Of a stretch of DNA of 64,000 nt, positions 42,396 to 47,594 are shown one piece after another. Both the position numbers and the translations under genes were made by a program. This DNA comes from Ralstonia sp. SET104 (GTDB lineage: Bacteria > Pseudomonadota > Gammaproteobacteria > Burkholderiales > Burkholderiaceae). The notes beneath the pieces are model-generated. The model was not told the DNA's origin. It made no database searches and saw only the letters and a program-made list of their open reading frames with translations. The stretch spans positions 1 through 64,000 of the forward strand of contig NZ_BHVX01000018.1 in the NCBI RefSeq assembly GCF_003851545.1, read 5' to 3'. The stretch's first letter is position 1, and every line of letters begins with the position of its first letter.

Positions 42396-43154
42396 TCAAA
42401 AGTTACAGAGCTTCAGCTGGAACGGGATATCCGCGTCGACTGGCTTGGGTCGCAGGTCGCCATCCTGCTGGGTGAAGCGCACCCAGAGCATGTACTTGTT
42501 GGCGCTGATCTCGGGAATGAACCCCAGCGCCGATTCATCGAGGCGCACCTGCATCAGCTGGTACACGCGGCCCGACAGCATTTGCTGATAGCCACCAGCA
42601 TTAGCAATCACCTTGCCACTCTGGCCTGATTCGCGCAACAGACGCAGCACGATCATCGTGGCGTCGCGCAGCGGCACCAGGGGCTGAGCCCATTTAATGA
42701 TGTCGGCGCGGCGGCGCTCGGCCGGGTGATGCTGCCACGCAAAATATGCCGGCAGATCAAACTCACACGTACCACCGGGGATGATGGCGCGGCTGCGGAT
42801 GCTCGTCAGCCACTCGTTATCGGCGATGAGCTGACCAGCCTTGCCGTGCGTAGCGGTGAGGTTGCCCGAAGCCGTTTCCAGCTCGCTGATGACGGCGTCG
42901 AGCGCGTCCTGGTCGATCTGCGGATTGGCGCGCAGCGCGTTGAGCGTTTGGCGCTGGCGATCGAGTTCTTTGAGCAGGTCGGATTTGAGGTCGGCGCGGC
43001 CGGCTACGTCGACCACCTCAAACAGCGTGGTCAGCGCCACATGGTGCTGCAGAGGGTGCTCCTGCACGAGAAAAAAATCCAGCCGCTCGAACAGGTCTTC
43101 GAGGCGCAGCAGCGTCCGAATGCGTTCGTTGAAGGGATATTCGTACAGGATCAA
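42396..43154 (-). CDS. zapD: Cell division protein ZapD
   Basis: 252 aa from TTG, starting (M)[28 protein letters not shown], which bundles FtsZ filaments. Further landmarks: [44 protein letters not shown] and [12 protein letters not shown]. The frame stays open for 24 more codons ([24 protein letters not shown]) up to a stop at 43229-43227 and has no ATG there. The 3' end of the group II intron falls inside this extension (about 43216), so the natural start may lie across the intron in the 5' exon. See findings. Confidence 0.9.
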
Positions 43155-43305
43155 AACTTGGGTGCCCGTTTGGATGGCATTCGACTGGCGCGAAGCCCTT
43201 TTGGGCTGCGGGAGGGTAGGGACAGGTCATCACTGACCCATCCCCCCCTAAGAACCGTACGTGCGAGTTTCCCCGCATACGGCTCAAGCCGTTACAAAGC
43301 CCCGA

Positions 43306-45000
43306 TTATAGGGCCGGTTTCACAACATTGATACCGCTGGCATGCACTTGGGCATGGCAGTTCGGGTGCAGCAGCACGCGATTTCCTAGGGCGTCCGAGC
43401 CACCGTGTACACGGTACTCGATATGGTGGTCATGCCATCCCGTTTCCTTGGTCATCTTGCACTGACACAGCGCACACAAGCCCCGCTGGTCGACATACAG
43501 CCTGATCCACTGCTTCCGGTGCGACATGCTTTGCAGCAGTCGCCCCTGACGCAAGGACTCGCCATACATTTCCTGCGCTGGATCGAAGGGGTTGTAATCT
43601 CCCTTGATCTTCTTGTGGCGTTCGATGGGTGTCCTCGCGAGCGAGTACAACTCCATCCACCGCTTGCTGTCGCTGTCCGCGACCGTGGTTCCGAAAACCC
43701 AACCTCGTCCGTCCGCCGGGGGGAAATACTTCTTCCGTACCCATTCAGCGGATTTGTTTGGGTGGCGGCGCTTGGCCCATTGCCGCAGAGCCCAGAAAAT
43801 ATCGTGCTCTAGACGGTTGAACGTCGCCTTGGCTACCACGGGGCTGTGATATCGCGCCCAACCCCGTAGCATCGGGTTCAGCAATCGGATTAGATCCTCC
43901 TGCTTCACCGTTTTGTTGGCACTGATGACCTCCTTGACCTTGCGGTAGAACGTTTGCACATTCTTCCTGCTCGGCTTGATGAGCAGTTTTCCCGAGTACT
44001 TCCGGAAATTCCACCCGAGGAAGTCGAAGCCTTCCGCGATGTTGACGATCCGCGTTTTCTCCATGGAAAGGGACAGCCCTCGTACAGCGAGGAACTGCTC
44101 CACCCACGGTTTGATCTCGCTTTCCAGGACTTCCGGCGTACTACCGGTGATCACGAAATCATCCGCATATCGCACCACATTCACTTTCAGCTTCTTGGCC
44201 TTGACCACCCCCAGCTTCGCCTGTAGATGCGCGAGCAGTTGGCTTTCCAGACCATTCAACGCCACGTTCGCCAATGTCGGGGAAATGATGCCTCCCTGCG
44301 GCGTTCCAGCCTCGGTCGCCTGAAACTGGCCCTGAAATACCACGCCAGCCTTCAGCCACTTCCGCAAGATTGCTTTGTCCATCGGGACATTGCGCTCCAG
44401 CCAGTCGTGGCTGATATGGTCAAAACAGCCTTTGATATCCGCCTCCAGTACCCATTGGGACGAAGCCTTTTTGGACAAGGAGACGAATAGCTGTGACATG
44501 GCATCCGCAGTGGAGCGATTGATCCGGAACCCATACGAGTTCGGATCGCTAGTCCCTTCGGACACCGGTTCCAGCGCCAGCAGGTATAGGGCCTGCATGG
44601 CTCGATCCAACATGGTCGGAATGCCTAGTGGGCGCTCCTTCCCATTGGCCTTGGGGATATAGACCCGCCGCAACGGCAGGGGCCGATACCCTCGGCGTTT
44701 CAACCGCCCGATGGCTTTCCACCGGACTTCAGGCGAGTCCCACAGTTCGCGATCGACGCCTGCCGTTCGCTTGCCTTGGTTCTCCGTCACTCGTCTTACT
44801 GCCAGCGCTTTCGCGCTGAACGAGCGGGTCAAGGACCGTTGCAGGGCTTTCACCCGGCGCCAATCCCCTTCCTGTGTTGCCTTCGCAATTCGAATCTGCA
44901 TTGCCCGGACGTTTCGCTCGACTCGACGCCATTGAATGGTCGTCCAGCTTTGCGGTGCGCCGGAAAGCGCAGATTGATCTTCACAGATCAATTCTTCCAT
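43306..45000 (-). CDS. ltrA: Group II intron reverse transcriptase / maturase (LtrA-type) with HNH domain
   Basis: 564 aa, intact. RT domain: RRVYIPKANGKERPLGIPTMLDRAMQALYLLALEP, YGFRINRSTADA, LEADIKGCFDHI, AGTPQGGIISPTLANVALNGLE and the catalytic VRYADDFVITG (YADD at 278-281). Maturase X domain at about 340-460. C-terminal HNH nuclease: CALCQCKMTKETGWHDHHIEYRVHGGSDALGNRVLLHPNCHAQVH. AGGAGAG precedes the ATG. It promotes splicing and retrohoming of its host intron. Confidence 0.95.
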   Translation of the reverse strand: MEELICEDQSALSGAPQSWTTIQWRRVERNVRAMQIRIAKATQEGDWRRVKALQRSLTRSFSAKALAVRRVTENQGKRTAGVDRELWDSPEVRWKAIGRLKRRGYRPLPLRRVYIPKANGKERPLGIPTMLDRAMQALYLLALEPVSEGTSDPNSYGFRINRSTADAMSQLFVSLSKKASSQWVLEADIKGCFDHISHDWLERNVPMDKAILRKWLKAGVVFQGQFQATEAGTPQGGIISPTLANVALNGLESQLLAHLQAKLGVVKAKKLKVNVVRYADDFVITGSTPEVLESEIKPWVEQFLAVRGLSLSMEKTRIVNIAEGFDFLGWNFRKYSGKLLIKPSRKNVQTFYRKVKEVISANKTVKQEDLIRLLNPMLRGWARYHSPVVAKATFNRLEHDIFWALRQWAKRRHPNKSAEWVRKKYFPPADGRGWVFGTTVADSDSKRWMELYSLARTPIERHKKIKGDYNPFDPAQEMYGESLRQGRLLQSMSHRKQWIRLYVDQRGLCALCQCKMTKETGWHDHHIEYRVHGGSDALGNRVLLHPNCHAQVHASGINVVKPAL

Positions 45001-46010
45001 GCTGCTCTCCTATGTTGAGGACCTTCCCCGACAGCAAGAGACAACATGCCCTCTGAGGGACGAGTTGCCCCTCAAGGGAAGAAATTTCAATTCACGAGTT
45101 TCTGTCAGCCGTCTTGCGACGAAAGACCAGTTGGAAGTCTGCCCGCTTTCGCGTGGGGTGATGTTCCAACCCCTATCCGGACCATTACAGCCCAGCATTC
45201 GCTTTCTCCAACCTCCCATACCCGCACAGCCAACAGCGTTCCTTGCGGTTCGCCTGCCCGAGCCAACAGCACTCGGGCAGCCATACGGGCTTACCACGTT
45301 CCCTGCGCGTTACACGACTGGGTTAGGGCCTACCTCTTCACCGGCGGTTCGTTGACGACGTACCCCGAGCAGATACCGGGATAGCCAACCGCACACCATT
45401 TTGGTTAATGCCTAACAGCAGCTTTGGCACCTTAATGCTGACGGTGTTTATCAGTAGTTCACTTACATTGCCCAGATACCAGCCAGCCTAGCTCCTTGAC
45501 CCCGTTGCTGCTCAGAGTCTCTGTCGTTCCGCCTCGCGGCGGGATGACACCCTTGCGGGGGCTACATTGTCAGGAGAGCTTCAGACCCCACCGTTACCAG
45601 TGGCGCATGTCTCCCTAGGCTACTGTCAGTCGTATGACAGGTTCACTATCGGTGGTCCCGTGTGGGATTGAACCGATTGAACAATAACGCACAGAGCTGG
45701 CGCTCGTGCTTCCATGGCGACTCCTGGCCCGCGGGCCAGGAATTGCAAACATTCATCCCGCTTGGTTAGCGGAGATGAAGCCGCTAACGTGGCGGAACCC
45801 AATGGTGATTGGGTTATTGCAATGCGGATGCCTGGACAAAAGTCCGGCCTCCGTCTTCATTTGTATGGCTTGGGTCCATACGGCCAATTGGCAGCGTTGC
45901 ATCCGCTGCGAGATGGGTCCGAGAAACGCCGACAAGGAGACCAACCTCCCATGACGTTTACACGGTCCAACCCGTAACGTGGGTCATTCGGACACGAGCA
46001 TCGTGTCGCA
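45001..46010 (-). ncRNA. Structured 5' region of the group II intron (domains I to IV)
   Basis: About 1 kb ahead of the ORF. On the minus strand it is rich in perfect hairpins, for example CACGA/TCGTG close to the 5' end, AACCCAAT/ATTGGGTT, GTTAGCGG/CCGCTAAC and CCTGGCCC/GGGCCAGG, then the segment with EBS1. The open frames within are not protein-like. It is longer than the 5' part of compact bacterial introns. Confidence 0.75.
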
Positions 46011-46084
46011 CATCTGCCCGCATTCTATGCGAGACCCTCGTTCATCACAATGCAAAGGGCTGTGGCGATCGCTTTCAGGCCGTT

Positions 46085-46699
46085 TCAGTTCGACCGGTAG
46101 GTTGGGTCCAGACGGTCGATCTGCGGCAGGAGGTCGGCTAGCGTGCCACTGTTGTCGATGACGTCGTCAGCGGCGGCCAGCCGGGCTTCGCGTGAAGCTT
46201 GGCGCGCGATGATGGCTTCCACTTGTGCGCGTGGCAGGCCGTTGCGAGCCATCACGCGGGCGATCTGCGTCTGAACCGGGCAGTCGATTACCAGGATGCG
46301 GTCAACCAGCTTGCGCCAGCTCTGATGCCCGGCGAGGGATTCCACCAACAGGGGGACGACGTAGACGAGATACGGATGCGCGCCCGACGCCTGCGCGGCG
46401 GCGCCGCGCGACAGCGCGATCTCGCGAATGAGCGGATGCGTGATTTGCTCCAGCCGCGTTTTGGCAGTGGCATCGGAGAAAGCAAGGGCGCGCATGGCAT
46501 CGCGATCCATGGCGCCATCGGCACGCAGGATGCCGGCGCCGAAGGTTTCGACCAGCCTGGGGATGGCGGCGCCGCCCGGCGCGGTGATTTCGTGGGCGAT
46601 GGCATCGGTGTCGACAATTGCGGCACCGCGCTCGGCGAGTCGGTCCGCCACGTAGCTTTTGCCGCTGCCGATGCCGCCGGTCAGACCGATTACGCGCAT
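46085..46699 (-). CDS. coaE: Dephospho-CoA kinase CoaE
   Basis: 204 aa. Last step of CoA synthesis, phosphorylating the ribose 3'-OH of dephospho-CoA. P-loop [50 protein letters not shown] and [21 protein letters not shown] at 46699 chosen (MRVIGLTGG). The gene is complete; the group II intron begins 74 bp after its stop. Upstream neighbour pilD. Confidence 0.95.
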
Positions 46700-46712
46700 G
46701 CTGGCAACGCCT

Positions 46713-47594
46713 TTACGGCGCAAGCAGGGGGCCAAGCCCCGTCATCATGATCAACTGTGGACCAGCCAGCAGCGCGATGACGCCGGCGCCGGCAATAAAC
46801 GGCCCGAACGAAAACGGCGATTCACTCTTCGCGCCGCGTGCAATGCGCACGAGCCCGAACACCAGCCCGACCACCGACGACAGCAGCACCAGCAACGGCA
46901 GTGCTTGCCAGCCGAACCATGCGCCGAGCGCGGCCATCAGCTTGAAGTCGCCGTAGCCCATACCTTCGCGGCCGCGCAGCAGCTTGTAGGCCCAGTAGAT
47001 CGACCACAGGAAGAGGTAGCCCGCCATCGCGCCGATCACCGCGTCGTGCAAGTGCGTGAACATGCCGAACAAGTTTACGCCCAGCCCGAGCCACAGTAGC
47101 GGCTGGGTGATGGCGTCGGGCAGCAGTTGCGTATCGGCGTCGATCATCGTGCCTGCGATCAGGAACCACAGCAGCACTGCCGAGGCCACGGCTACCCACG
47201 TCGGGCCGAAGTGCCACAGGCAAGCCGCAGTCAACAGGCCCGTCACCAGTTCCACCGCCGGGTAGCGCCACGAGATCGACGTTTTGCAGGCACTGCACCG
47301 GCCGCGCAGCGCAAGCCAGCTCAACACGGGGATATTTTCGATCGCTTTGATCTGATGGCCGCACGACGGGCACGCCGAGCGCGGCACGACCAGGTTGTAT
47401 GCGTCGGGGTGGGGCAGCGGTTCTTCGCGCAGCTCGGCGATGTAGTTGGCTTCCTCGCGCTCGATCATGCGCGGCAGGCGGTGAATCACCACGTTGAGGA
47501 AGCTGCCGACGAGCAGGCCAACCAGTCCGCCTATCGCAATGACAAACCACGCTGGCAGCTGCGCCAGCGTGGGAATGACGAACAACTCGGGCAT
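46713..47594 (-). CDS. pilD: Type IV prepilin peptidase / N-methyltransferase PilD
   Basis: 293 aa inner-membrane aspartic protease that cleaves and N-methylates prepilins. N-terminal [19 protein letters not shown]; cytoplasmic zinc loop with CPSCGHQ and CSACKTS; catalytic Asp in ADTQLLPD and in [14 protein letters not shown] (GxGD). About eight membrane segments. It overlaps pilC by 1 nt and precedes coaE by 13 bp. Confidence 0.95.

Follow-up and report, generated by a model that had tools for sequence, protein, structure and literature searches.

The window analysed here, a stretch of 64,000 nucleotides from Ralstonia sp. SET104, contains a full-length group II intron (46011-43211, minus strand, 2801 nt) between coaE, the upstream gene (46085..46735, minus strand), and zapD (42396..43154, minus strand), whose start lies 56 nt past the intron. 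An earlier reading of the sequence alone, hereafter the sequence-only reading, had described the surroundings as a pilBCD-coaE-zapD-yacG operon. The names pilB, coaE, zapD and yacG stand, each passing its curated cut-off, while the pilC ORF matches PilC/GspF models under their cut-offs and the pilD ORF has no NCBIfam match at 1e-3; the names pilC and pilD are thus tentative and are taken partly from that reading.

The intron extends from 5' GTGCGAC to CTACCCTCC 3', limits which are drawn from the sequence, Rfam, empty sites in congeners and the 3' ends of relatives. The 5' end at 46011, read straight from the sequence, has the GTGYG of group II introns, and Rfam recognises, above threshold, parts of domain I at 45641-45492 (RF02012, 118 bits) as well as domains V/VI (43287-43211; RF00029, 69 bits). 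Domain V (34 nt, 43252..43285, minus strand) is placed by sequence and Rfam, and domain VI forms a hairpin (43211..43250, minus strand; Rfam and computed fold) with a bulged A at 43217, base 7 counted from the intron 3' end, which is the likely branch point. Both domains fold well beyond shuffled sequences, the computed fold of domain V being one base out of register. Among 15 congeners searched, 13 present the empty site as exactly CATAGAATGCGGGCAGAT^CG, i.e. GCAGAT^CG; one more (L023) is intron-free with the junction GCAGGT^CG, and the remaining one, R. soli, has an intron at the same place. Since the window resumes with CG at 43210, these junctions set the intron 3' end at 43211. The full-length group II intron proposed in the sequence-only reading at 43216..46011 is therefore upheld by the Rfam matches to domain I and domains V/VI and by the GTGCGAC end at 46011, and the comparison with intron-free Ralstonia which it suggested provided the empty sites that move its other end 5 nt beyond, to 43211. 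The last two nucleotides of the window intron are CC (43211-43212), as in 28 of 65 introns with listed ends; AC is found in 35 of the 65.

The intron-encoded protein P0001 (43306..45000, minus strand, 564 aa) comprises RVT_N, RVT_1, GIIM and HNH domains with zero internal stops, so that the intact RT-maturase-HNH ORF described previously is confirmed. It matches TIGR04416 at 377 bits against a cut-off of 300, and its nearest solved structure is PDB 6me0 (E 4e-174), a group IIB maturase of Thermosynechococcus elongatus. The HNH domain and the 6me0 match make a place in the CL/IIB class plausible; features of the terminator-targeting class C were not found, the HNH being present and the interval 45950-46200 containing no terminator-like site. 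We read the window intron as a group IIB (CL-like) element, presumably mobile and able to splice.

The same genome contains another copy (C9), which is 86% identical in DNA over query positions 206-2820. In a comparison of four copies, the 3' end of one (G013) is visible, and the motifs applied did not locate the ends of C9. Between R. soli and the window, identity reaches 93.9% for the intron ORF, 92.4% for zapD and 88.0% for coaE, and because the ORF value is near that of zapD and above that of coaE, common descent and exchange of the intron are both possible. Three congeners compared, with a similar zapD identity (91.3-93.0%), are intron-free. By sequence comparison the window intron is a mosaic ribozyme. 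Its first 185 nt (window 45827-46011) do not align with the corresponding nucleotides of the intron that occupies this site in R. soli. Over its first 240 nt it shares 76% identity with a different intron, L172.

Upstream of the insertion site lies the -10-like hexamer TAGAAT (46022..46027, minus strand), 10 nt ahead of the intron, as part of the element TTGTGA-17-TAGAAT (46022..46050, minus strand), which was identified through a promoter scan and conservation in congeners and is the sole promoter-like site detected in 45950-46200. The hexamer stretch is exact in 13 of the 15 congeners and present in L023. The intron thus sits in the zapD leader, 10 nt past a conserved promoter-like -10 element; the location between co-oriented genes given in the sequence-only reading holds, but the site is more than the middle of a transcript. 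Immediately 3' of the insertion site, at 43190-43210, a hairpin CGAAGCC-GGCTTCG is also observed, with variants of the form CGAnGCC-loop-GGCTTCG in congeners.

To place this site among others, a contig scan covering 84,980 species by database description was used, which found 273 stretches encoding a relative; the best 80 of the 273, together with the window copy and C9, gave 82 introns. The 5' end was located by motif in 75 of the 82, with none for seven (L040, L051, L058, L094 and L097-L099), and L091 was dropped for a wrong start pick, its likelier start being GCGCGACACG, behind TATAAT. The 74 usable 5' ends were joined into 46 site clusters at no more than 11 differences in 30 flanking positions, a criterion under which distinct sites may be merged and relatedness among the introns persists.

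A TANNNT box is found in 45 of the 46 site clusters, starting 15-18 nt and ending 9-12 nt ahead of the intron, with the start at -16 in 37 clusters; the exception, L081, has CATAAT. At offsets from -60 to -289, the same pattern occurs on average in 0.157 of the 46 clusters per offset, with a maximum of 3. A match of at least five of six bases to TATAAT is present in 34 of the 46 clusters against a background of 0.6%, and TATAAT itself accounts for 14 of the 45 boxes. Since only TA...T was counted as a box, bases 1, 2 and 6 are constant by construction in hexamer-aligned counts; at fixed positions, T is found at -16 in 40 clusters, A at -15 in 39 and T at -11 in 37. Hexamers of the -35 type are weakly enriched (at least 4/6 match in 15% vs 8%; TTG in 11% vs 4%). 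Moreover, the box is seen in alleles which lack the intron: for ispB of Cupriavidus, 60 of 60 genomes matched, and among the 30 loci listed 6 are occupied and 24 empty. TATAAT is retained at an unchanged distance in all 24 empty sites, with far more variation in the sequence ahead of it. On these sequence patterns, a clade of group IIB (CL-like) introns probably targets sigma-70 -10 elements.

The bases read by the intron RNA were sought through Watson-Crick covariation between exon and intron columns across the 46 site clusters. EBS1 was found to covary with exon positions -1 to -6 and EBS2 with -9, -10 and -12 to -14. In the window, IBS1 is GCAGAT (46012..46017, minus strand; sequence and covariation) and EBS1 is ATCTGC within a CCCG...CGGG hairpin (45369..45374, minus strand; covariation, own-versus-mismatched pairing). 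This complementarity had been noticed in the sequence-only reading as an exact EBS1/IBS1 match, and the covariation search recovered the same positions, 45374-45369. IBS2 takes in hexamer bases 3-6 and the two bases after them (46020..46025, minus strand; covariation). EBS2 comprises GCATT at intron nt 574-578 together with nt 572 and lies in a loop of 11 nt, which CACC/GGUG closes (45434..45440, minus strand; covariation and fold). Both short hairpins have weak z-scores (-1.8 for EBS1 and -1.3 for EBS2), their drawn folds being recovered in isolation, with two loop bases of EBS1 additionally paired with each other.

With G-U pairs allowed, EBS1 and IBS1 pair at a mean of 5.72 of 6 positions with their own partners and 2.90 when mismatched. 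For EBS2, over 45 hexamer-aligned sites, bases 3-6 and the next base pair in 98-100% and the last in 84%, whereas mismatched partners pair in 28-70% at the varying bases. Both EBS1-IBS1 and EBS2-IBS2 pairing, as expected of group II introns, are therefore present, and the window intron is, with good support, full-length and probably competent at an EBS/IBS-matched site. EBS1 and EBS2 change together with the site, but T1, A2 and T6 of the box hardly vary: the partner of T6 is always A in hexamer-aligned sites despite varying neighbours, and the EBS2 base opposite exon -11 is A in 45 of 46. Hexamer bases 1 and 2 (exon -16 and -15) showed no convincing covariation with any intron column, and hence no RNA partner. 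Hexamer base 3 (exon -14) covaries with intron nt 572 (window 45440), two nucleotides 5' of EBS2. This sixth pair falls outside the simple antiparallel order.

For gene starts around the introns, a simple codon model was used whose training set was the genes of the window. It gave a call for 45 representatives (none for L062), and in all 45 the nearest gene downstream is co-oriented, with its called start 14-440 nt past the intron (median 56). Besides zapD, the downstream genes of 39 representatives were compared with NCBIfam, L054, L076, L087, L089 and L106 being left out. At 1e-30, 34 of the 39 matched, several of these being gene pieces or under the curated cut-off, and no match was obtained for C9, L030, L037, L079 and L092. 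The matched genes include argF, ribF, secB, rpiA, erpA, gltX, secA, lepA and ubiH, and furthermore coaBC, rnt, pmbA, ubiE, dapA, lipB, ftsY and efp, with a transporter and an aminotransferase matching below cut-off; most of the named genes are presumably housekeeping genes. Judging from these gene calls, insertion ahead of host genes, in many cases housekeeping genes, is a rule of the clade rather than an oddity of one copy. The sequence-only reading had regarded such a setting as unusual; owing to the promoter-like element, the window site is more remarkable still than it supposed.

The extent of the clade was examined with a control set of 40 loci, 18 of which are close relatives, several of them identical to loci among the best 80. 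In 17 of these 18 the box was flagged, and in L161 TATAAT lies one step farther. Among the other 22 loci, L139 belongs to the clade and its start shows the box, while the remaining 21, introns from the same bacterial family but of different RT lineages, have no box at -16/-17 of the listed candidate starts, several true starts being uncertain. Some control introns are preceded by T-rich stretches, which is typical of class C. The RT tree unites the 46 box rows with L091 and L139 in a single branch (89/99), which is unstarred in the larger tree and adjoins introns of Alcanivorax, Orbaceae and Pasteurellaceae whose starts are not confidently placed; the order inside the branch is unresolved in both trees.

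More distant introns were obtained from a class-wide search of 369 genomes, and 16 were examined. Ahead of the start GTGCGAC, L210 has TATTAT and L223 has TATAAT, both at 9 nt, and in L219 and L221 TANNNT is found at a second, less likely candidate start. A second tree was built with 25 of the 46 box rows, 12 of the 16 distant introns (without the short L215 and without L214, L220 and L222), six controls and three others. L210 falls within the box branch (98/99) and, lying outside the defining set yet inside the branch with a box of its own, represents a rule-fitting case independent of the rule's definition. L223 is placed far outside, on a long branch, and its box may be due to either chance or a second origin; with L219 and L221 also showing it, the clade does not have the box entirely to itself.

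In the mechanism we propose, the intron RNP would insert some 10 nt past -10 elements of the sigma-70 type, in the sense of the promoter, and the intron would therefore begin near the transcription start of the host gene. The intron-encoded protein may read T1 and A2, by extension from work on T. elongatus, and the RNA the remaining bases, with EBS1 pairing to exon -6 to -1 and EBS2 plus one nucleotide 5' of it pairing to hexamer bases 3-6 and the next two; the RNA would reverse-splice into the non-template strand, the HNH would nick the opposite strand and the RT would copy the intron. Host promoter use, splicing and retrohoming are what group II introns in general lead one to expect. The intron would ride on the host promoter, at low cost to the host because the start of the host gene is retained past the insertion. 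Promoter function of the boxes is something we infer from their sequence.

A more speculative extension, which we consider doubtful, is that the RNP attacks the open promoter complex, so that transcription itself opens the target. Transcription typically starts 7 nt behind the -10 hexamer, and the idea is offered because such a start leaves a 5' exon of only about 4 nt. IBS2 and IBS1 would then match the stretch of non-template strand that is melted (about -10 to +4), and insertion would occur at the downstream edge of the melted region. In such a case IBS2 would be untranscribed from that promoter, and the near-perfect EBS2 match would therefore be kept for DNA targeting alone.

The observations could also be produced by ordinary homing-site introns whose RNP needs T-16, A-15 and T-11 plus EBS matches anywhere, selection then sparing gene-leader insertions only. 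The fixed bases could reflect protein and EBS2 constraints, and TeI4h of T. elongatus likewise combines EBS/IBS pairing with selected bases at -15 and -16 (PMC2882425, in the part considered). This explanation is nevertheless unlikely, as neutral intergenic sites should persist in both orientations, which is what the control loci show (of 22, 15 have a gene call, eight in + and seven in - orientation, and seven have none; the calls include identical copies), yet the next gene is co-oriented at every called site of the clade. Furthermore, the variable middle bases still favour TATAAT in spite of site-to-site differences in EBS2. That the intron simply retrohomed into a read-through operon, the -10-like box of zapD being coincidental, agrees with the closeness and shared orientation of coaE and zapD and with the pil genes upstream, but is very improbable given that 45 of 46 site clusters, and intron-free alleles too, show the same box at the same spacing. 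Scarcely credible is a class C-like insertion guided by the hairpin directly behind the zapD site, which is seen in congeners, when no terminator-like site occurs at 45950-46200 and the protein has an HNH and a group IIB maturase as top solved match.

A 2015 review recognises, in the part considered, three specificities of bacterial introns, namely homing sites, terminators and attC (PMC4424553). The TeI4 introns share with the present clade EBS/IBS targeting and copy-to-copy EBS families, and TeI4h selects A-15 and C-16 just upstream of IBS2; they differ in being inserted in intergenic regions, an IS, genes and other introns, with a promoter rule absent from the portion of the description considered (PMC2882425). 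EcI5 of E. coli, likened here by description alone, is described there as a close relative of the T. elongatus introns, with a protein that reads one base of the 3' exon and four that lie upstream of the stretch paired with EBS2 (PMC2882425, same portion). Class C introns resemble the clade in a motif-guided target that spares coding sequence, but they are directed to a terminator motif or attC, and their protein lacks En (PMC4424553, in part), in contrast to the HNH and -10 box found here. No description of promoter-targeting group II introns was recognised in titles and abstract beginnings of the open-access, as distinct from the subscription, literature; the word 'promoter' appears once in PMC4424553, within a reference title on class C-attC introns, and is absent from PMC3522654 and PMC8919778. 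Targeting of the -10 box by group II introns thus looks like an undescribed rule. If true, -10 elements, many of them of housekeeping genes, would constitute a fourth target specificity and would tie a retroelement to transcription initiation. This would explain the persistence of such introns beside important genes and suggest tools with natural promoter-directed targeting.

A different arrangement was observed in three of the distant introns, L211, L221 and L212, whose proteins are 54-56% identical to that of the window and form one branch (100/100). These introns split tRNA-Gly genes in the anticodon stem (L211, 1367-1440; L221, 1380-1453; L212, 1404-1477), and the joined halves fold as tRNA-Gly with anticodons CCC, UCC and CCC, respectively. 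Each also contains an intact tRNA-Gly gene with the same anticodon just ahead of the protein start, and it looks as if the introns bring a replacement for the gene which they break.
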